Assembly: GCF_011064545.1 (NCBI RefSeq)
Contig: NZ_JAAMFG010000026.1
Coordinates: 62,001-126,000 of the forward strand
Length of the DNA stretch: 64,000 nt
Reading direction: 5' to 3'
Origin: Wenzhouxiangella sp. XN24
Lineage (GTDB): Bacteria > Pseudomonadota > Gammaproteobacteria > Steroidobacterales > XN24
How positions within the stretch are numbered: the first letter of the stretch is position 1; each line of letters opens with the position of its first letter. A model generated the notes under the pieces. It ran no database searches. It saw only the letters and a list, made by a program, of their open reading frames with translations, and was not told the origin of the DNA. Below are positions 1 through 7,004 of this stretch, one piece after another. The translations under genes were made by a program, and so were the position numbers.

Positions 1-2
1 TG

Positions 3-1838
3 ACCGAGGATGGGCGCTGCCTCTTGCCGTCGCGCGCGGCAACGTGCCGTCAATACCAGGACCTCACGCCGCAGCCGACCATCACGACCGAAACCGGGGA
101 GCCGGGGATGGCGTTGACCAGCCGTGCCTGGGTCGAACTCGACGCCGGTTCTCCCGTATGCAAGCTTCGCCTGACCGCCCGCAGCGACAGCGACGGCTGG
201 GTCGTCCTGGCCCTGCGTCCCCAGAACCCGGAGGGCGTGAGCTTCATCAACGAGGTGCGTCTGCTGGCGGATCGAGATGGCTGGCAGGTCGATGACGCAC
301 CCGAGGTGCGCTTCAGTCAACCTGCTGAACAGCACCACGTATCCGACTACGGGAACGGGGACGTCCATATTCACCTGCAGGATCGGGAGGAGCAGACGGA
401 GGTACGGTGCGACGTCGGGCTCGCCACGGCCGCAGCTCTTTTCCCGGTCAAGGCCGGCGAAGCCGCCGAGATCACCGCCAGCATGGTGTTGCCGCAGGAC
501 CAGGCCACAAGCCTTGATGCCGAGGCATGGCAGCACACCTGTCGGCATCGCTGCCGCCTCGAGTGCCCGGAGCCGCGATACCAGTTCCTGTATGACGCTG
601 CCGTCACGTCGCTGGTGCTGCACTCGCCTGACGACGTCTATCCCGGGCCGTACACCTACAAGCGATTCTGGTTCCGGGACGCGGCATTCATCATCCATGC
701 GCTGCTGTGCGCAGGCCTCACGGATCGCGCCGAACGCGCCTTGAAGCGTTTCCCGGAACGCCAGACCCCGCTGGGATACTTCCGCTCCCAGGAAGGCGAA
801 TGGGATGCCAACGGCGAGGTACTGTGGATCCTGCGGCGTTACACGGAACTCACGGGTCGCGACCTGCCGTCGCAGTGGCACGGACCGCTGCAGCGGGGGG
901 CGCGCTGGATCATTCGCAAACGTCTCGACGACTCGCTCGATGCGCCTCATGCCGGCTTGCTGCCCCCCGGATTCAGTGCCGAACATCTCGGCCCGAACGA
1001 CTATTATTTCTGGGACGATTTCTGGGGCATCGCGGGTCTCGAATCTGCGGCGGCGCTATTTGCCAACTCCGATCCCGGCCAGGCCCTCGAGTTCGGCCAG
1101 GCGGCGGAAGCCTTTTCCGCTGCGGTGGATCGAAGCCTGGCCGGTTGCGCCACCCGCCTCAAGCGCCCGGCCATGCCGGCCTCGCCTTACCGTCGCCTGG
1201 ACGCCGGCGCGATCGGCTCGCTCGCCCTCGGCTATCCGCTGCAACTCGGGCCCGCACGGGATCCACGGCTGCTCGACAGCGCGGAATTCCTCCTCCATCG
1301 CTGCTTCGTCAAGGGCGCTTTCTACCAGGACATGATCCATTCCGGGCTGAACGCGTATCTCACCCTGCACGTGGCCCAGGTGCTGCTCCGGGCCGGCGAC
1401 CCGCGTTACCTGGAACTGATGGATACCGTGGCCGACATCGCTTCCCCGACAGGCCAGTGGCCGGAGGCCATTCACCCGGCCACCGGCGGCGGTTGCATGG
1501 GTGACGGACATCATGTGTGGGCCGCCGCTGAATGGGTGCTGATGTTGCGCAACTGTTTCGTGCGCGAGGAAGGCCATTCCCTCGTCCTGGGCGCAGGCAT
1601 CCCCGCCCGCTGGCTGGCCGCTGGACAGCCGATCCGCTTCGGTCCGGCGCCGACGTCGTTCGGCCCGGTGTCGCTCTCGATACGCCCCCGGCCCGGCGGC
1701 GAGACACGCATCGAATGGCGCGCCGAATGGCGCGGCCCGCCACCCCCGCTCGAGATCCGCCTTCCCGGCTTCGAAGCGGTCACGACATCCGGTGAAAGCG
1801 GCGACCTGCTGTTGAACCCTACGGAAGCATCGCCATGA
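3..1838 (+). CDS. Glycoside hydrolase, (alpha/alpha)6-barrel, GH15/amylo-1,6-glucosidase-like (5' end outside window)
   Basis: The reading frame is open to the left edge of the window, so the N-terminus is missing; 611 residues are visible. The first ~190 residues are beta-rich, as in the N-terminal domain of GH15/GH63-type enzymes. From about residue 200 the protein is helical with aromatic and acidic motifs typical of an (alpha/alpha)6 glucosidase barrel: YKRFWFRDAAF, EWDANGEVLW and DYYFWDDFWGIAGL. The likely role is hydrolysis or trimming of a glucan or glycoside; substrate and exact family cannot be fixed by eye. The stop overlaps the start of the next gene (ATGA), so it is translationally coupled to a GT4 glycosyltransferase. 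This suggests a polysaccharide or glycoside synthesis/turnover operon. The class is fairly sure, the specificity is not. Confidence 0.7.
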   Translation, partial: TEDGRCLLPSRAATCRQYQDLTPQPTITTETGEPGMALTSRAWVELDAGSPVCKLRLTARSDSDGWVVLALRPQNPEGVSFINEVRLLADRDGWQVDDAPEVRFSQPAEQHHVSDYGNGDVHIHLQDREEQTEVRCDVGLATAAALFPVKAGEAAEITASMVLPQDQATSLDAEAWQHTCRHRCRLECPEPRYQFLYDAAVTSLVLHSPDDVYPGPYTYKRFWFRDAAFIIHALLCAGLTDRAERALKRFPERQTPLGYFRSQEGEWDANGEVLWILRRYTELTGRDLPSQWHGPLQRGARWIIRKRLDDSLDAPHAGLLPPGFSAEHLGPNDYYFWDDFWGIAGLESAAALFANSDPGQALEFGQAAEAFSAAVDRSLAGCATRLKRPAMPASPYRRLDAGAIGSLALGYPLQLGPARDPRLLDSAEFLLHRCFVKGAFYQDMIHSGLNAYLTLHVAQVLLRAGDPRYLELMDTVADIASPTGQWPEAIHPATGGGCMGDGHHVWAAAEWVLMLRNCFVREEGHSLVLGAGIPARWLAAGQPIRFGPAPTSFGPVSLSIRPRPGGETRIEWRAEWRGPPPPLEIRLPGFEAVTTSGESGDLLLNPTEASP

Positions 1839-3121
1839 ACATTCTCATCGCCACCAACACCTTCACGCCCCATGTCGGCGGCGTGGCGCGATCCGTGGAG
1901 GCATTCACGGCGGAGTATCGGCGACGCGGACACCGCGTGCTGGTGCTCGCGCCGGAGTTTCCCCATATGCAGGAAGACGAGATCGACGTGATCCGGATCC
2001 CGGCGATCCAGAATTTCAATGCCAGCGATTTCTCCGTCGTCCTGCCATTGCATCCGAGCCTGAGTGAACAGGTCGATGATTTCGATCCGGATATCGTGCA
2101 CTCCCAGCATCCTTTCCTGCTGGGCTCCACCGCGATGCGCCTCGCCCGGCACCGCAGGCTGCCGCTGGTGTTCACCCATCACACGCTCTACGAGCAATAC
2201 ACGCACTACGTGCCGGGCGACTCGCCCGCATTGAAGCGCTTCACCATCGAGCTGGCGACCCGATACGCGAATCTCTGCGACCAGGTTTTCGCGCCGAGCG
2301 AGAGCATCCGGGACATACTCCGGGAACGCGGCGTTGGCACGCCGATCGAAGTCGTGCCGACCGGTGTCCAGCCGGAGCGTTTCGCCCACGGGGACCGGTC
2401 CGCGTTCCGTGCGGCCCACGATATCCCTGGTGACGCGTTCGTCGTCGGACACCTCGGGCGCCTGGCCCCGGAGAAGAACCTGGAGTTCCTGGCCCGGGCC
2501 GTCATCCGGTTCCTCTCGGACCATCACGACGCCATGTTCCTGGTCGTCGGTGCCGGCCCGTCGGAAGCCACCATTCGGGCATTGTTCAGCGAGGCCGGCC
2601 TCGCAGACCGGCTCAGCATCGTCGGGGTACTCGAAAAACAGGCGCTCGCAGACGCCTTGCACGCGATGGATGTATTTGCGTTCACCTCGCACAGCGAGAC
2701 CCAGGGCATGGTGCTCACCGAGGCCATGGCAGCCGGGCTGCCCGTCATCGCGCTCGACGCGTCCGGTGTCAGGGAGGTCGTCCGTGACCGGAACAATGGC
2801 CTGCTGCTACGCGACGGGACGCCGGAAGAATTCGCCGCCGCGCTGCACTGGGCGCGGTCATTGTCGGCCGGGCAATTCCAGGAACTCAAGCGAGGTGCCC
2901 TCGCCACGGCCAACGATTTCTCGCTCCCCCGCTCGGCGGACAGCGCGTTGGCGTGTTATGAATCGCTGCTCCGGCAGAGGCCTGAGGGAGCAATCCCGGA
3001 CGAAACCCCCTGGCGGGAAGCCATGGCTGCAATCAAGACGGAATGGGAACTTTTGAAGAACGTGGCGGTGGCGAGCGACGCCGCGCTCGGCACCCGCCTG
3101 TTCAGCGAACGCGAATCCTGA
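1835..3121 (+). CDS. GT4-family glycosyltransferase
   Basis: 428 residues with the GT-B fold of family 4 retaining transferases. The N-terminal Rossmann half opens with NTFTPHVGGVARSV, the glycine loop that contacts the acceptor. The C-terminal half carries GHLGRLAPEKNLEFL and, around residues 285-310, the E-x7-E-type nucleotide-sugar signature (FTSHSETQGMVLTEAMAAG). Related enzymes glycosylate diacylglycerol or phosphatidylinositol, or build polysaccharides; the donor cannot be read from the sequence. It acts in the cytoplasm or at the inner membrane. The start overlaps the stop of the upstream glycoside hydrolase, and a 31-base gap leads to the phosphodiesterase-EEP fusion, so the three genes look like one transcript. 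Confidence 0.88.
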   Translation: MNILIATNTFTPHVGGVARSVEAFTAEYRRRGHRVLVLAPEFPHMQEDEIDVIRIPAIQNFNASDFSVVLPLHPSLSEQVDDFDPDIVHSQHPFLLGSTAMRLARHRRLPLVFTHHTLYEQYTHYVPGDSPALKRFTIELATRYANLCDQVFAPSESIRDILRERGVGTPIEVVPTGVQPERFAHGDRSAFRAAHDIPGDAFVVGHLGRLAPEKNLEFLARAVIRFLSDHHDAMFLVVGAGPSEATIRALFSEAGLADRLSIVGVLEKQALADALHAMDVFAFTSHSETQGMVLTEAMAAGLPVIALDASGVREVVRDRNNGLLLRDGTPEEFAAALHWARSLSAGQFQELKRGALATANDFSLPRSADSALACYESLLRQRPEGAIPDETPWREAMAAIKTEWELLKNVAVASDAALGTRLFSERES

Positions 3122-3152
3122 GGCGCTTCGTATTGCACGGAGCCGCACACCC

Positions 3153-5579
3153 ATGCTGACCCGGATCGAGGTTTTTTTTCGCCGCCTGAGACGCAACCTG
3201 AGCCGCAGCCTGTGGCTATCGCGGTTGTTGCGACTTCCCGCCTCCCGGGGGTCTCCCACCCGACCCGGATTGCTGATGATCCAGATCGACGGCCTCGGGC
3301 GGCGGCAACTCGAGCGTGCACTCGAACGCGGGGAGATGCCGTTCCTCAGTCGCCTGCTGGGCCGCGAGCACTACCACCTCCACTCCCATTATTCCGGCCT
3401 GCCGTCCGCCACACCCGCCGTGCAGGGCGAGCTGTTCTACGGGGTCAAGACGGCCGTTCCCGCGTTCGCTTTTCGCGATCATGAAACTGGCCGCATGGTG
3501 CGCATGTATGACGCCGACGCAGCGGAGCGCGTGGAAGCGAGGCTGGCCGAGACGGGTCATGAGCCGTTGCTCAAAGACGGCAGCGGCTACTCGAACAACT
3601 ATCGGGGGGGGGCTGCTGAACCACACTTCTGTCCGTCCTCGATGGGCTGGGGCGCAATGCTCCGGGCCGCGAACCCCGTGGTGCTGCTGACGTTCATTCT
3701 GAGTCACCTCTACAGTTTCGTGCGCGTCAGCGTGCTCCTGGTCTTCGAGATCGGCCTCGCCCTCTACGATTTCGTGCGCGGTGTCGTCGGCGGCCAGGAC
3801 CTGATCAAGGAGCTGAAATTCGTGCCGACGCGCGTCGCGATTTCGGTGTTGTTACGCGAGTTCTGTGTCATCGGGGGCAAAATAGATATCAGTCGCGGCC
3901 TGCCGGTGGTGCATATCAACCTCCTTGGCTACGACGAGCAGTCGCATCGCCGTGGACCTCGATCGCTTTTCGCCCACTGGACATTGAAAGGCATCGACGA
4001 TGCCATCGCCCGCCTGTGGCGGGCCACCAACCGGGCCGAGTGGCGCCATTACGATTTGTGGATCTACTCGGACCATGGCCAGTCGGCCGCAGTGCCGTAC
4101 CATCAAGCGCAAGGATATACGCTCGAGAACGCCGTCTCCCGGGCGTTCTCGAATGCCGGGCTGGCCGACCCGCACAAGCAGGCAGACGACAAGCCCGCCG
4201 TGGCCCAACGTGCCCGGCTGCTCGGTGGACATCGCCTGCAACGGATCTTCTCGCGCCTTTCGAATCACGACGACGGCACGGGGGTCGGCCATGAGCTGCT
4301 CGTAGCCTGCCTCGGCCCCGTGGGACATGTCTATTTCCCGCCCGACACGGATGCGGCCCAGCGTCTCGCCATCAGTCGCGCGTTGGCCGTCGAGCACCGG
4401 GTCCCCGTGGTTATCGAGAAGAGTGGTCCGGACAGTGTCCATGCGATCACGAGCCAAGGGGAGTTCGAATTGCCGCGCGAAGCAGCCCTACTGTTCGGAG
4501 AGGACCATCCTTTCATCGATTCGATCGGCCCTGATCTCGTGCAGCTCTGCCATCACGCGGATGCCGGCGACCTGGTTCTTCTCGGTTGGCGCAAGACGCT
4601 CAACCCGCTGTCTTTCGCCGAGGAAAGTGGTGCGCATGCGGGCGTGGCACCCGACGAAACCCACGGTTTCGCATTGTTGCCGGACGACGTGCCCGCGGCG
4701 GATCACACATCCGGCTACCTGCGACCCCTGGATCTTCGCCAGGCCGCGCTGCGTCATCTCGGCCGCTCGGAAAGCCGGCTTGCCGACGGCCCGGCACAAC
4801 GCCAGGCGGATGACGGACGCACCCTCCGGCTTATGACCTACAACGTCCATAGCTGCATCGGCATGGACGGCAAGCTCGATGCCCAGCGGATCGCTCGCGT
4901 CATCTCGCGCTTCAGCCCGGACATCGTGGCGCTCCAGGAACTCGATGTCGGGCGCAGCCGCACTCGCGGTATCGACCAGGCGCACGAGATCGCCCGCTAC
5001 CTTGAGATGGACTTTCATTTTCATCCGGCGATGCACCTGGAAGAAGAGCTGTATGGCGATGCCGTACTGAGCCACCTGCCCATGCGACTGGTGAAGGCCG
5101 GCGCGCTGCCGGGCCTCGCCGACAAGCCGGGACTGGAACCACGGGGTGCGTTGTGGGTTGCCATAGAGCACTGCGGAACGGAGATCCAGGTGATCAATAC
5201 GCATCTCGGCCTGTCACGGCGAGAGCGCCTGGCGCAGGTGGATGCGCTATTGGGCGAGGAATGGCTCGGTCACGAAGCGTGCCGGGATCCGGTGATCTTC
5301 TGCGGCGACCTGAATGCCATGCCGCGCTCTCGCACTCATCGGCGCCTCGCACGGCGCATGAGGGACGTCCAGGACGAAGCACCAGAGCATCGACCGCGCG
5401 GCACGTTCTCCAGCCGCTTCCCAAGCATGAGAATCGATCACGTGTTCATCGGCGCCGGACTCATCGTGGACCGCATAGACGTGCCGGACTCTGAACTGGT
5501 GCGTGTCGCCTCCGATCACCTGCCGCTACTGGCCGAACTCCGGCTGGATCGCGACGAGCTGCCGGCCGGCGACAGCTAA
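3153..5579 (+). CDS. Fusion of alkaline-phosphatase-superfamily phosphodiesterase and EEP (endonuclease/exonuclease/phosphatase) domain
   Basis: 808 residues, two hydrolase domains. Residues ~38-540 resemble type I phosphodiesterase/nucleotide pyrophosphatases: metal-binding Asp46 in MIQIDGLG, nucleophile region LPSATP (Ser85/Thr87), YDEQSH and SDHGQ. A hydrophobic stretch at about residues 172-212 interrupts this domain and could be one or two membrane helices or a hairpin. Residues ~558-800 are an EEP domain with the family landmarks TYNVHS, ALQELD, NTHLGLS, CGDLNAMP, RIDHVF and SDHLPL. The basic N-terminus lacks a clear signal peptide. Two phosphoester-cleaving domains in one chain, next to a GT4 and a glycosidase, suggest processing of a phosphorylated glycolipid or phosphodiester intermediate; this is inference. 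A run of nine G lies in frame at 3604-3612. The stop overlaps the stop of the convergent gene in the shared bases CTAA. Confidence 0.82.
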   Translation: MLTRIEVFFRRLRRNLSRSLWLSRLLRLPASRGSPTRPGLLMIQIDGLGRRQLERALERGEMPFLSRLLGREHYHLHSHYSGLPSATPAVQGELFYGVKTAVPAFAFRDHETGRMVRMYDADAAERVEARLAETGHEPLLKDGSGYSNNYRGGAAEPHFCPSSMGWGAMLRAANPVVLLTFILSHLYSFVRVSVLLVFEIGLALYDFVRGVVGGQDLIKELKFVPTRVAISVLLREFCVIGGKIDISRGLPVVHINLLGYDEQSHRRGPRSLFAHWTLKGIDDAIARLWRATNRAEWRHYDLWIYSDHGQSAAVPYHQAQGYTLENAVSRAFSNAGLADPHKQADDKPAVAQRARLLGGHRLQRIFSRLSNHDDGTGVGHELLVACLGPVGHVYFPPDTDAAQRLAISRALAVEHRVPVVIEKSGPDSVHAITSQGEFELPREAALLFGEDHPFIDSIGPDLVQLCHHADAGDLVLLGWRKTLNPLSFAEESGAHAGVAPDETHGFALLPDDVPAADHTSGYLRPLDLRQAALRHLGRSESRLADGPAQRQADDGRTLRLMTYNVHSCIGMDGKLDAQRIARVISRFSPDIVALQELDVGRSRTRGIDQAHEIARYLEMDFHFHPAMHLEEELYGDAVLSHLPMRLVKAGALPGLADKPGLEPRGALWVAIEHCGTEIQVINTHLGLSRRERLAQVDALLGEEWLGHEACRDPVIFCGDLNAMPRSRTHRRLARRMRDVQDEAPEHRPRGTFSSRFPSMRIDHVFIGAGLIVDRIDVPDSELVRVASDHLPLLAELRLDRDELPAGDS
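3604..3612 (+). repeat. In-frame run of nine G inside the phosphodiesterase-EEP gene
   Basis: Nine consecutive G encode the end of Arg and Gly-Gly at about residues 152-153 of the fusion protein. Loss or gain of one G would truncate the protein within its first domain. It is the longest coding homopolymer noticed in the window. Confidence 0.9.
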
Positions 5580-6109
5580 AGGGTGTGGATCGTGTCCGCG
5601 CCCCGGGCCTGGAGCGCTTCCTCGGCTTTGCTGCGCTGGGCCAGGTCGAATGCGTGGACAACGACCGCAGAGGCCCCGGCCTCCAGACCCGCACGCACGC
5701 GGCTGATGTAGGGGTCGTGATCGGGACGCAAAGACACCAACCCACCCAGCAGCATGCCGGCAATGGCGCCGAAAAACACCAGCACGAGTGCCGCAGGCCA
5801 GGCGGAGCGCAGCACCAGCGGCAAGCCGAGCGCATACAGCAGGCCGAACACCACGATGCCTGCCACGGCTCCTGCCAGCCCCAGCCAGGCATGTGTGCGC
5901 AGGATCGTGCGAAAGATTCCGGCCTCCTCGGGTTCGAGCGCCCTGTTCACCCCTTCGACACCCGGATAGAGAACTTCCAGCTGAGACGCCTGCAACGCCA
6001 GCAGGTCACGCAGTTCCTCGGCGGCGCGTCCGGCCGCGTCCCGATCGGAAAATATCCCCGCCACCTTGTGGTCGGAGCGCTCTCCGGTGAGTCCAGGCGC
6101 GTGCTTCAT
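5576..6109 (-). CDS. Membrane protein with YflT-like N-terminal domain and glycine-rich TM hairpin
   Basis: 177 residues. A short alpha/beta N-terminal part (VAGIFSDRDAAGRAAEEL) resembles the general-stress YflT/DUF1269-type fold that precedes a glycine-zipper membrane hairpin. Two hydrophobic segments follow at about residues 73-120, then a C-terminal alpha/beta tail (ASAVVVHAFD). The plan matches the protein at 6492-7004, though direct identity is low. Such proteins are often tied to envelope stress, but no function is assigned. It converges on the phosphodiesterase-EEP gene with overlapping stop codons. Confidence 0.7.
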   Translation of the reverse strand: MKHAPGLTGERSDHKVAGIFSDRDAAGRAAEELRDLLALQASQLEVLYPGVEGVNRALEPEEAGIFRTILRTHAWLGLAGAVAGIVVFGLLYALGLPLVLRSAWPAALVLVFFGAIAGMLLGGLVSLRPDHDPYISRVRAGLEAGASAVVVHAFDLAQRSKAEEALQARGADTIHTL

Positions 6110-6387: not shown

Positions 6388-6492
6388 ATGCGAAAATCCG
6401 CCGTGACGTGGCGCAATATTCTCCTCCTGGTCGCATGCCTGCTGGTCTTCTACTTTGTCGTACTGACGATTGCACGCAGCCTGGCACAGTGA
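6388..6492 (+). CDS. Small single-pass membrane peptide, 34 aa
   Basis: The peptide has a basic N-terminus (MRKSAVTWRN), one hydrophobic helix of about 19 residues and a short tail ending ARSLAQ. AGAGGA lies at good distance upstream as a ribosome binding site. The stop codon shares its last base with the ATG of the next gene (TGATG), the usual sign of translational coupling. It resembles other bacterial single-TM microproteins in plan only; I recognise no family. The coupling and the ribosome binding site are the reasons for calling it real. Confidence 0.6.
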   Translation: MRKSAVTWRNILLLVACLLVFYFVVLTIARSLAQ

Positions 6493-7004
6493 TGAAGAAA
6501 AGACTCTGTTTCGTCTCTCCCGACGTCGAGCATGCGGTTGCCGTGGTGCAGCACCTCGAAGCAGACGGCCTCCCGCGCAAGAATATCTATGCCCTGGGGC
6601 CACCGGATCTCCCGATGGAGCGATTACCCGGGCCCGGGCCGGAGAGAGACGATTTCATGCCGGCATTTATTCGCGGTGTCACCTTCGGCGCCGTCGGCGG
6701 ACTGCTCATAGGCCTTGTCGTGCTGGCCTTCGCGCCGTCCCGGATCGAAGTCGGCGCCGGGGGCGTGTTGTTGCTGGGTTTGCTGGGCGCCAGCGTGGGG
6801 GGCCTCGGCACGGGAATCTCCGGCCTCGCGTTTCCGAGTTCCCGGCTCGCGCCCTTCGCAAACGACATCGAAGCCGGCCGTATCGTCGTCATGGTGGACG
6901 TGCCCAAGGATCGCGTCGAGCGCGTCAATGCACTCATCCGCCGGCTCGATCCCGACGTGAATGTCGAAGGTGTGGAGCCGCCCCCGCCTGTCATCCCGCC
7001 CTAG
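6492..7004 (+). CDS. Membrane protein, YflT-like domain plus glycine-zipper hairpin
   Basis: 170 residues from the ATG that overlaps the stop of the 34-residue peptide. This start is preferred over upstream in-frame codons because it gives the natural N-terminus MKKRLCFVSPD and is coupled to the preceding ORF. The layout is an N-terminal alpha/beta domain (~1-55), two Gly-rich membrane segments (~58-105), a C-terminal domain (GRIVVMVDVPKDRVE) and a proline-rich end. The organisation matches the 5576-6109 protein across the intergenic region, suggesting two diverged copies of one family. The stop TAG overlaps the stop of the convergent methyltransferase gene in the palindrome CTAG. Confidence 0.72.
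   Translation: MKKRLCFVSPDVEHAVAVVQHLEADGLPRKNIYALGPPDLPMERLPGPGPERDDFMPAFIRGVTFGAVGGLLIGLVVLAFAPSRIEVGAGGVLLLGLLGASVGGLGTGISGLAFPSSRLAPFANDIEAGRIVVMVDVPKDRVERVNALIRRLDPDVNVEGVEPPPPVIPP

Follow-up and report, generated by a model that had tools for sequence, protein, structure and literature searches.

A conserved VTT-glycosidase-GT4-phosphodiesterase-EEP gene cassette in Wenzhouxiangella sp. XN24 and its possible role in membrane-lipid editing

In PlcP-Agt membrane-lipid remodelling, a phospholipase C gene adjoins that of a glycolipid-making glycosyltransferase, and putative Pho boxes are reported from PlcP clusters (PMC4796936). A study on DedA proteins describes eukaryotic homologues as phospholipid scramblases and some bacterial ones as flippases of undecaprenyl phosphate (UndP) (PMC10127716). 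Here, we analysed a locus at the left edge of a 64,000-nucleotide stretch of DNA (the window) from Wenzhouxiangella sp. XN24. It encodes a DedA/VTT-type protein (VTT), a putative glycosidase (GH), a GT4 glycosyltransferase and a phosphodiesterase fused to an EEP domain (PDE-EEP). The original prediction knew of no described system with this set, and our literature search agrees: no published description was found among the matches listed in open-licence full text, an absence that counts as weak evidence.

The locus had been described as an operon of three co-directional open reading frames (ORFs). The ORF list places all three on the plus strand at the positions given, the first of them (3–1838) being open at the left edge of the window (Table 1). 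The operon-like arrangement was thus retained, while its extent had to be revised. The GH gene extends about 415 bases beyond the left edge of the window, to a start at L002:11586, which gives a full length of 750 residues, and a fourth gene, VTT, precedes it. The ATG of GH overlaps the VTT stop by 4 bases, and the GT4 start overlaps the GH stop by the same distance. The unit is therefore VTT-GH-GT4-PDE-EEP, larger than the three genes first reported.

Table 1. Features of the cassette in Wenzhouxiangella sp. XN24 (window positions unless prefixed).
Feature	Position	Strand	Evidence
VTT gene, 254 aa (upstream of GH, outside window)	L002:10825-11589		PF09335 profile
GH, C-terminal 611 of 750 aa, GH15/GH65-like (alpha/alpha)6	1..1838	+	ORF list, fold model
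GT4 glycosyltransferase, 428 aa	1835..3121	+	PF13439, PF00534
PDE-EEP fusion, 808 aa, single ORF	3153..5579	+	ORF list, motifs, Pfam
Basic amphipathic N-terminal helix, residues 1-25 of PDE-EEP	3153..3227	+	Hydrophobic moment, net charge
NPP-like alkaline-phosphatase-superfamily PDE domain, residues ~37-545	3261..4787	+	Conserved residues, fold match
Hydrophobic helical segment inside PDE, residues ~172-212	3666..3788	+	Hydropathy, low-confidence model
EEP domain, residues ~557-808	4821..5579	+	Conserved residues, fold match

The joining of an alkaline-phosphatase (AP)-superfamily phosphodiesterase to an EEP domain in one 808-residue chain was borne out by Pfam, motifs and fold matches. All motifs quoted in the original prediction are present, namely D46, S85/T87, SDHGQ (306–310), TYNVHS (562–567), NTHLG (682–686), CGDLNAMP (717–724) and SDHLPL (787–792). 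In the PDE domain, PF01663 matched residues 256–314 only (2.6e-8, 34.3 bits versus a gathering score of 23), and a profile search matched this family in 12/12 A1 members. Residues D46, T87, D261, H265, D307, H308 and H495 did not vary among the 47 homologues aligned, and we assume for them the two-metal ligand and Thr/Ser nucleophile roles of NPP enzymes. The domain matched Xac NPP (7n1s; VIA Z 23.6, 325 aligned, rmsd 2.7) and ENPP6 (5ege; VIA Z 23.3, 338 aligned, rmsd 3.0). The EEP domain matched PF03372 over residues 561–789 (3.1e-23, 83.1 bits versus a cut-off of 24.5) and resembled 4ruw (VIA Z 30.1, 237 aligned, rmsd 2.2) and human neutral sphingomyelinase (8j2f; VIA Z 25.2, 235 aligned, rmsd 2.8). 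Its residues N564, E596, H684, D719, N721, D788 and H789, presumably the catalytic N, E, H, D/N and D-H set, were invariant in the same 47 homologues. It also exceeded the cut-off of the Pfam PGAP2IP C-terminal domain (28.8 bits versus 27), which we take to be a eukaryotic GPI-lipid family; this was counted in favour of a lipid substrate. Combined, PDE and EEP are both predicted phosphoesterases whose active sites appear intact, with a chemistry that we infer from fold and context.

The hydrophobic stretch reported within the PDE domain is real. The highest 19-residue Kyte-Doolittle mean is 1.92, starting at residue 186, and the maximum is at least 1.6 in all 47 homologues. In the model, a helix reaching about residue 248 comes after this segment, and the pLDDT is only 54–71 over residues 161–230; this low modelling confidence of the insert was counted against lipid editing. 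At the N-terminus of PDE-EEP, the window starting the basic helix at residue 3 has the sixth-ranking hydrophobic moment of 793, and the first 26 residues carry a net charge of +2 to +8 (median +5, 81 homologues).

The gene called a glycosidase is in place, and the call derives from its fold; an assignment by profile did not hold, as no Pfam or NCBIfam family reached its curated cut-off in searches of those libraries, and PF00723 (GH15) matched only 1 of 34 GH members (E 0.065). The predicted model (pLDDT 83.5) aligned with dextran dextrinase (9ju0; VIA Z 34.8), 7fe3 (VIA Z 31.6, 526 aligned, rmsd 4.6) and glucoamylase (1lf6; VIA Z 31.1, 525 aligned, rmsd 3.0), with residues before about 80–90 left uncovered, and Foldseek also matched it to a GH65 2-O-alpha-glucosylglycerol phosphorylase. 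Over most of its chain, the modelled GH thus resembles the (alpha/alpha)6 alpha-glucosidases of GH15 and GH65, the families of clan GH-L. W362, R364, D365, E466 and E627 were invariant in 34/34 members, and E466 and E627 may, judging by GH15 motifs and a weak alignment register, be the equivalents of the GH15 acid/base residues. The N-terminus of GH was rejected as a membrane anchor, its amphipathicity (median percentile 0.95) being no higher than that of the GT4 control (0.96).

GT4 carries N- and C-terminal GT4-type domains (PF13439, 9.3e-38; PF00534, 4.3e-33; both above cut-off), and scored far under the cut-off of every named NCBIfam family. The top profile was alpha-monoglucosyldiacylglycerol synthase (NF049988; 138.5 bits, below the cut-off of 400), a glycolipid synthase, which was counted for lipid editing. 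MshA- and BshA-type profiles (109.2 and 84.6 bits) and polysaccharide GT4 families also matched. Among the PDB matches were PimB and PimA, likewise counted for lipid editing, with a "predicted glycosyltransferase" and BshA ranking above both. Because of the sub-cut-off scores, the MshA/BshA matches and the rank of BshA, a non-lipid acceptor for GT4 is possible. The VTT protein belongs to DedA/VTT (PF09335; 84.0 bits versus a cut-off of 33.9) and scored 24.2 bits against the undecaprenyl-phosphate transporter UptA (NF052604), whose cut-off of 250 was not reached.

In a collection with one genome per species, a PDE relative is encoded by 328 stretches. The cassette is co-conserved in 80 loci from several phyla, these being the best 80 of the 328 by PDE similarity with 248 more distant ones outside the counts, and in 11 of 369 genomes of the class; the set of 91 related loci includes two duplicates (L063/L104 and L065/L108, identical rows). 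The question of whether the genes stay together was answered positively: the VTT-GH-GT4-PDE-EEP order recurs in Gammaproteobacteria, Betaproteobacteria and Thermodesulfobacteriota and is kept across phyla, with labels taken from record titles, many of them of metagenome-assembled genomes (MAGs), and doubtful for Halobacteria, Chloroflexi, Lentisphaerae and Hydrogenedentota. The junctions are near zero or overlapping (median gaps of -4, -4 and 8 bases). Loci counted as testable for GT4, GH and VTT if they had 1450, 3800 and 4700 bases of upstream sequence, respectively, thresholds that set aside the GH-less loci L137, L141, L143 and L153. Among the testable loci, PDE was preceded by GT4 in 74 of 75, by GH in 60 of 61 and by VTT in 52 of 59. 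Protein distances among the five parts correlated with Spearman coefficients of 0.82–0.92 (57 loci; fusion parts cut by length into the first 530 and last 250 residues), as shared ancestry alone would also produce. The whole cassette occurs in Thiobacillus denitrificans RG, Rheinheimera pacifica DSM 17616, Arsukibacterium ikkense GCM72 and Microbulbifer harenosus HB161719. The titles of these four strains are not marked as MAGs. Within its own order the distribution is patchy, with full-length PDE-EEP plus GH in 2 of 59 genomes, including the one studied here.

The genes do not form a fixed set, since GH, VTT or PDE-EEP can each be absent, a point counted against lipid editing. In two of the seven loci without VTT before GH (L089 and L099), tblastn located a VTT-type gene downstream of GH, ahead of GT4; a profile search also found it with a profile that contains both sequences, so that only tblastn is independent. 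VTT was found by neither search in 5 of the 59 testable loci, nor did one turn up close to GH-GT4 in L171–L175. GH-GT4 without PDE occurs in 7 of the 369 class genomes, and a PDE profile found nothing in the seven GH-only genomes and G001 (positive control 3/3). A few loci carry GT4-PDE-EEP without GH. As GT4 pairs with GH alone or with PDE-EEP alone, it is the hub of the cassette.

Relatives do not usually encode PDE and EEP as two separate ORFs, a possibility raised in the original prediction: in 82 of the 91 loci, one uninterrupted ORF covers both domains. Among the other nine, three are split, three have PDE with a different EEP gene nearby and three break inside EEP on short contigs; in the Methylothermaceae clade, as seen in a quick tree with long branches, the split genes stay adjacent. 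All three loci with an intact PDE minus its fused EEP have the different EEP gene no more than about 5.4 kb away; it directly precedes VTT in two of them and is the second gene downstream in the third. In contrast, where the fusion is intact, an extra EEP gene occurs in none of 81 loci within the flanking sequence covered (both flanks of at least 5 kb in 59 of 91 loci). The replacement-type EEP is 31–33% identical to the fused one and falls in a different EEP clade of a quick tree with long branches. Elsewhere in the class, all 8 loci fetched have sequence for PLD and VTT next to it and on its strand, as located by tblastn with the PLD-VTT protein of L194, antisense ORFs hiding PLD-VTT in two of them. 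Since a lost EEP is replaced nearby in 3/3 cases and an extra EEP accompanies 0/81 intact fusions, EEP belongs to the cassette. The replacements and the adjacent split genes further suggest selection to keep both activities in it.

Wider settings were rejected. No other family is linked to more than 21 of 91 loci; the distance of this largest one varies, and the Rheinheimera/Arsukibacterium group accounts for 13 of the 21. As partners in a wider operon, AI-2E and SLAC1 gave no tblastn match in 11 relative loci, and VIT, sortase and the genes after the cassette were missing there, the exceptions being VIT and sortase in the congener G002 and, in three loci, weak matches to a histidine kinase. 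A mobile element was dismissed: the PDE matched none of 50,697 phage records, and the plasmid matches were two Streptomyces records only (28% identity over 53–57% of the query), with no EEP match in 12.9 kb of the one record fetched. PADLOC matched 0 of 4 proteins, which speaks against anti-phage defence. A sigma-70-type promoter scan found none, fewer than in shuffles, and was uninformative. Pho-regulated lipid remodelling gained no support either: when a crude consensus was run over 63 loci, limited to the 300 bases ahead of VTT, the mean best score was 9.30 versus 9.10 in shuffled sequence, with a score of at least 12 in one locus. As this simple scan showed no Pho-box excess, a phosphate-starvation trigger is unsupported.

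We propose, with a probability of about 0.5, that the cassette edits an alpha-glycosylated membrane lipid at the cytoplasmic face. GT4, as the hub, would transfer a sugar, most likely alpha-glucose, onto the lipid, and the GH15/GH65-like enzyme would remove the alpha-linked sugar or trim a longer chain, so that both together might set sugar level or length. PDE-EEP could be held at the same face by its basic amphipathic helix and hydrophobic hairpin and would cleave phosphodiester and phosphomonoester bonds in the same lipid pool, whereby the NPP-like domain may act like a phospholipase C on the head group, while EEP may attack either that lipid or the phosphorylated product. Movement of the lipid between leaflets would fall to the VTT protein. 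The gene set and its order, the fusion, the intact catalytic residues, the replaced EEP and the fold classes are observed, and from them we infer that the substrate is a lipid, that it is handled on the cytoplasmic side and that the specificity is alpha-glucosyl, as well as which way the flux runs and how PDE and EEP share the work. That the substrate is a phosphorylated glycoconjugate, as originally suggested, was not confirmed. Four features favour a membrane lipid over a soluble glycoconjugate, namely the presence of VTT, the hairpin and the basic N-terminus of PDE-EEP and the PLD-VTT neighbours of the replacement EEP. More tentatively, and with odds clearly below even, the locus might represent an undescribed glycolipid cycle passed between phyla as one cassette, in which the membrane-anchored double phosphoesterase, GT4 and a new-family GH make, re-set and recycle the lipid and VTT distributes it. 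In this view, EEP and VTT would be interchangeable modules that also serve a second lipid gene group, PLD-VTT-EEP.

The same parts could instead handle a polyprenyl-phosphate glycan, with GT4 glycosylating an undecaprenyl-phosphate-linked sugar, VTT flipping the carrier, PDE-EEP cleaving or dephosphorylating the carrier link and GH trimming the glycan. UndP flippases among DedA relatives (PMC10127716), the weak UptA match and the polysaccharide GT4 families are consistent with this, but the UptA score is far under its cut-off and the unit contains no polymerase or carrier flippase, the best other family reaching only 21/91 loci; we regard it as rather unlikely. A cytoplasmic compatible-solute or oligosaccharide cycle, in which GT4 would synthesise an alpha-glucosyl solute, e.g., one of glucosylglycerol type or a longer alpha-glucan, with GH degrading it and PDE-EEP dephosphorylating an intermediate, also seems unlikely. 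The membrane features of PDE-EEP in 47/47 homologues and the frequent VTT neighbour weigh against it, despite the match of GH to the glucosylglycerol phosphorylase and the GH-GT4 pairs lacking PDE-EEP. Many carrier genera, as named in record titles, are presumably marine or saline, which would suit such a solute, while others, e.g., Thiobacillus and Methylobacter, we take to be of freshwater or soil type, which weighs against it.

Both phosphoesterase folds are common to nucleotide enzymes (Xac NPP, TDP2, nocturnin), and seven genomes have GH-GT4 without PDE-EEP, so the two domains might act on unrelated substrates such as nucleotides, the fusion merely co-regulating them. The replacement of a lost EEP beside the cassette and the adjacency of the split Methylothermaceae genes make this quite improbable. 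The patchiness within the order is all that would speak for a chance neighbourhood or annotation artefact, which is hardly credible and is refuted by an order kept across phyla with overlapping junctions.

If lipid editing is correct, the cassette would add a route for glycolipid editing in Gram-negative bacteria and assign functions by context to bacterial VTT proteins, non-nuclease EEP proteins and membrane-anchored NPP-like enzymes, all three of them groups that are poorly understood. It occurs in several phyla, including in named strains, yet none of the libraries searched contains a curated family model for its GH.

A comparison with known families and systems locates the distinctive features. 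GH shares the overall fold of GH15/GH65 alpha-glucosidases (Z 31–35), and a weak alignment puts its WxRD in register with that glucoamylase (1lf6), whereas it is only 12–16% identical to the GH15/GH65 structures named and has an extra conserved N-terminal 100 residues. Similar to NPP/type I phosphodiesterases (PF01663; Xac NPP, ENPP5/6), the PDE has the fold (Z 23–24) and, by motif, seven metal/nucleophile residues, but differs in its hydrophobic helical insert, C-terminal EEP and a Pfam match limited to 256–314. The EEP domain agrees in fold and catalytic residues with its superfamily (PF03372; neutral sphingomyelinase, TDP2, bacterial 4ruw), while being fused to an AP-superfamily domain. The PLD-VTT plus EEP gene groups of Gammaproteobacteria likewise have EEP and VTT adjoining, with PLD instead of GT4/GH/PDE and an EEP of another clade. 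Finally, the phosphoesterase-plus-glycosyltransferase logic of PlcP-Agt resembles that proposed here. However, the cassette shows no Pho-box excess in the simple scan, adds a glycosidase and a VTT protein and, in a contrast by family and not by fold, has an NPP-like domain fused to EEP where the lipase of that system is PlcP.

The original prediction placed a glycosidase (GH), a GT4 glycosyltransferase and a fusion of an alkaline-phosphatase-superfamily phosphodiesterase with an EEP domain (PDE-EEP) in one operon, and all three ORFs proved to be real when followed in the sequence of this 3.29-Mb genome, of which the window covers positions 62001-126000 of contig C26. Reading of L002, the own-genome stretch that includes sequence upstream of the window (window position = L002 position − 12000), showed that the GH starts at L002:11586, upstream of the window, and has a full length of 750 aa. 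Ahead of it is a gene whose 254-aa product carries a VTT domain (PF09335, 84.0 bits). The VTT stop and GH start overlap by four bases (ATGA), as do the GH stop and GT4 start, while 31 bases separate the GT4 stop from the PDE-EEP start. Ahead of the VTT gene lie genes for an AI-2E family transporter (same strand) and a SLAC1 protein (opposite strand), neither of which was found close to the cassette when 11 relative loci were compared. A VIT/VWA-domain protein adjoining a sortase-domain protein is encoded further upstream, and a 55% identical pair occurs in the congener G002. Two small proteins encoded just 3′ of the cassette have hydrophobic stretches rich in glycine; they gave no Pfam match at 0.01 and no tblastn match in the 11 relative loci.

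Coordinates of features in the XN24 genome and in related loci
Feature	Coordinates	Remark
VTT-type gene, other kind	L089:8119-8637	between GH and GT4
VTT-type gene, other kind	L099:8149-8631	between GH and GT4
GH residues 1-150	L002:11586-12035	among the most conserved
VIT/VWA and sortase-domain proteins	L002:5009-7677	some 4.3-7 kb before the window starts
VIT/VWA and sortase pair, G002	L062:11256-13930	~1 kb downstream of the cassette
Small protein	window 5576-6109 (-)	
Small protein	window 6408-7004 (+)	
PDE-EEP behind GT4 remnant and other genes	L092:9858-12415	cassette decayed or misassembled
AP-superfamily frame, Streptomyces sp. BHT-5-2 plasmid p1	L179:6001-6879	distant PDE-domain relative

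A GTDB-based collection was scanned with a PDE alignment, and the best 80 of 328 relatives were kept; together with 11 from other genomes, these make up 91 loci. The genes stay together in a preserved order. Enough sequence to judge is available for 75 of the 80 loci, and in 74 of these PDE directly follows GT4; the exception is L092, in which GT4 is reduced to a 53-residue remnant. GH precedes GT4-PDE in 60/61 loci and VTT precedes GH in 52/59, with median junction gaps of −4 (VTT-GH), −4 (GH-GT4) and 8 bases (GT4-PDE). In the class survey loci (own and L063-L072), GT4 adjoins PDE-EEP in 11/11, L071 being cut by a contig end, and GH and VTT were each found in 9/11; the congener G002 has all four genes. 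VTT-GH-GT4-PDE-EEP is a real, conserved operon. Beyond these genes, no family is common in its surroundings: the largest links 21/91 loci, its distance from the cassette varies, and 13 of the 21 belong to one close group.

A reverse survey with the GH alignment gave a match in 27 of 369 class genomes, at full length in 16. Nine of these carry the cassette and seven have no PDE match in a search run with a positive control; in all seven, GT4 directly follows GH, and VTT was found before GH in two. Conversely, VTT-GT4-PDE without GH is present in L141 and L137, and GT4-PDE-EEP without GH in L143, L153 and L070. Since GH-GT4 without PDE and GT4-PDE without GH both occur, GT4 is the hub, and GH and PDE-EEP are two modules that are mostly found together.

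Both domains of the fusion are seen by Pfam (PF01663 at residues 256-314, PF03372 at 561-789) and by comparison of an AlphaFold model built from a 47-row alignment, A3 (mean pLDDT 83.4, pTM 0.87). A eukaryotic PGAP2IP EEP-type profile is barely above its cut-off (28.8 bits vs 27). The PDE domain model matches Xac NPP 7n1s (VIA Z 23.6, 325 aligned, rmsd 2.7) and ENPP6 5ege (Z 23.3, 338 aligned, rmsd 3.0), and the EEP domain model matches 4ruw (Z 30.1) and human neutral sphingomyelinase (Z 25.2). Residues D46, T87, D261, H265, D307, H308 and H495 of the PDE, and N564, E596, H684, D719, N721, D788 and H789 of the EEP, are identical in 47/47 rows; we take them to be the catalytic positions of the respective families. 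The hydrophobic stretch proposed within the PDE is also conserved: its 19-residue mean is 1.6 or higher in 47/47 homologues, a level that the rest of the chain attains in 3/47, and it is modelled with modest confidence as helices 186-212 and 217-248. A strongly basic, amphipathic helix forms the N-terminus. In the Streptomyces L179 locus, the 28% identical frame has a hydrophobic region preceding its PDE match, and an EEP match is absent from the 12.9 kb examined.

Fusion is the norm among the related loci rather than two ORFs, with a single full-length PDE-EEP ORF in 82/91 loci (81 by length filter plus L064, a longer ORF). In the class survey, a match over essentially all 808 residues was found in 11/369 genomes, own included. 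Of 59 relatives, counting the own genome, just two (the own genome and G002) have the full-length fusion, while the congener G001 gave EEP-only matches. PDE and EEP are two adjacent ORFs in three Methylothermaceae loci (L132, L142, L155), which form one starred clade in a quick-method PDE tree. PDE occurs without fused EEP in L101, L107 and L133, which are placed apart from that clade, among fused relatives. The ORF breaks inside EEP in L127, L137 and L154, on short MAG contigs.

All three PDE-alone loci have a separate EEP gene nearby: in L101 and L107 it immediately precedes VTT, and in L133 it lies ~1.2 kb downstream and is read from the opposite strand. These EEPs share 53-64% identity among themselves and only 31-33% with the fused domain, so they are a different EEP type standing in for it rather than the original domain detached from the chain. 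Additional EEP matches, beyond the PDE ORF, were seen in 7/91 loci, all without an intact fusion, and no extra EEP gene was found at 81 intact-fusion loci within the flanking sequence examined (for the 91 loci, the shorter flank has a median of 8.1 kb and the longer one of 10 kb, and neither is under 5 kb in 59). Therefore, the cassette seems to require an EEP activity, which another gene can supply, and the EEP half of this unusual double phosphoesterase appears to be under selection to remain with it.

Elsewhere in the class, the replacement type was matched at E ≤ 1e-30 in 9/143 genomes; in one of these, G183, the match is itself a cassette fusion. The other eight loci (L189-L196), all gammaproteobacterial, have PLD- and VTT-encoding sequence next to EEP, in the same orientation. 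Pfam finds PLD in all six with scanned ORFs, with four PLD-VTT fusions and one separate VTT gene; a literature search for an EEP, PLD and VTT gene group found no paper. We infer that the replacement EEP normally belongs with VTT and PLD-like, i.e., phospholipid-type, functions. Of seven loci lacking VTT ahead of GH, L089 and L099 instead have a VTT-type gene within the cassette, which a search with the VTT portion of a PLD-VTT protein picked up at 28-31% identity; this is a second case of part replacement akin to the EEP exchange.

The GH query reached no Pfam or NCBIfam family at its cut-off, and 34 members gave only scattered Pfam matches at E 0.02-0.08; each of the families concerned, GH15 included, was hit by a single member. 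Over ~525 residues, the GH model (pLDDT 83.5) resembles enzymes of GH15 and GH65: dextran dextrinase 9ju0 (VIA Z 34.8), GH65 alpha-1,2-glucosidase 7fe3 (31.6), and glucodextranase 1ug9 and glucoamylase 1lf6 (31.1), with lower Z for other (alpha/alpha)6 families such as GH125, GH78 and GH116. Invariant W362-R364-D365 falls on W-RD of 1lf6 in a weak sequence alignment, and E466 and E627, also invariant, may, judged by motifs, correspond to the GH15 acid and base positions. The N-terminal 150 residues have a mean majority of 0.79-0.87 per 50 residues; residues 31-78 are modelled at pLDDT <50 and fold matches start only at ~residue 80-90, and this part is possibly an interaction surface. Long frames of ~960-1150 aa in L176-L178 and other weak survey matches (24-33% identity) may, judged by sequence, represent a wider glycosidase family.

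GT4 transferases are retaining with respect to the anomeric configuration of the donor, and GH15/GH65 substrates are alpha-glucosides; it is therefore chemically coherent for GT4 and GH to work as a pair on one alpha-glucoside. The best named GT4 profile is alpha-monoglucosyldiacylglycerol synthase, at a score far under cut-off, and PDB relatives include PimB and PimA, with BshA and an unnamed glycosyltransferase ranking higher. A membrane lipid would be the most economical common substrate of the cassette enzymes, favoured by the VTT protein, the hydrophobic hairpin of the PDE and the exchange of its EEP with a PLD-VTT-associated one. Lipid editing is the best supported but unproven reading.

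Bacterial DedA/VTT proteins fall into three subfamilies, of which one includes UndP flippases and another putative flippases of phospholipids (PMC10127716). Literature searches found no description of the VTT-GH-GT4-PDE-EEP set, which is, as far as these show, an undescribed operon of familiar enzyme types, including a GH family that lacks a curated model. PlcP-Agt lipid remodelling carries putative Pho boxes in the published account (PMC4796936), whereas a simple scan gave no excess of Pho boxes at the cassette; among the systems described, PlcP-Agt remodelling comes closest to it in logic.
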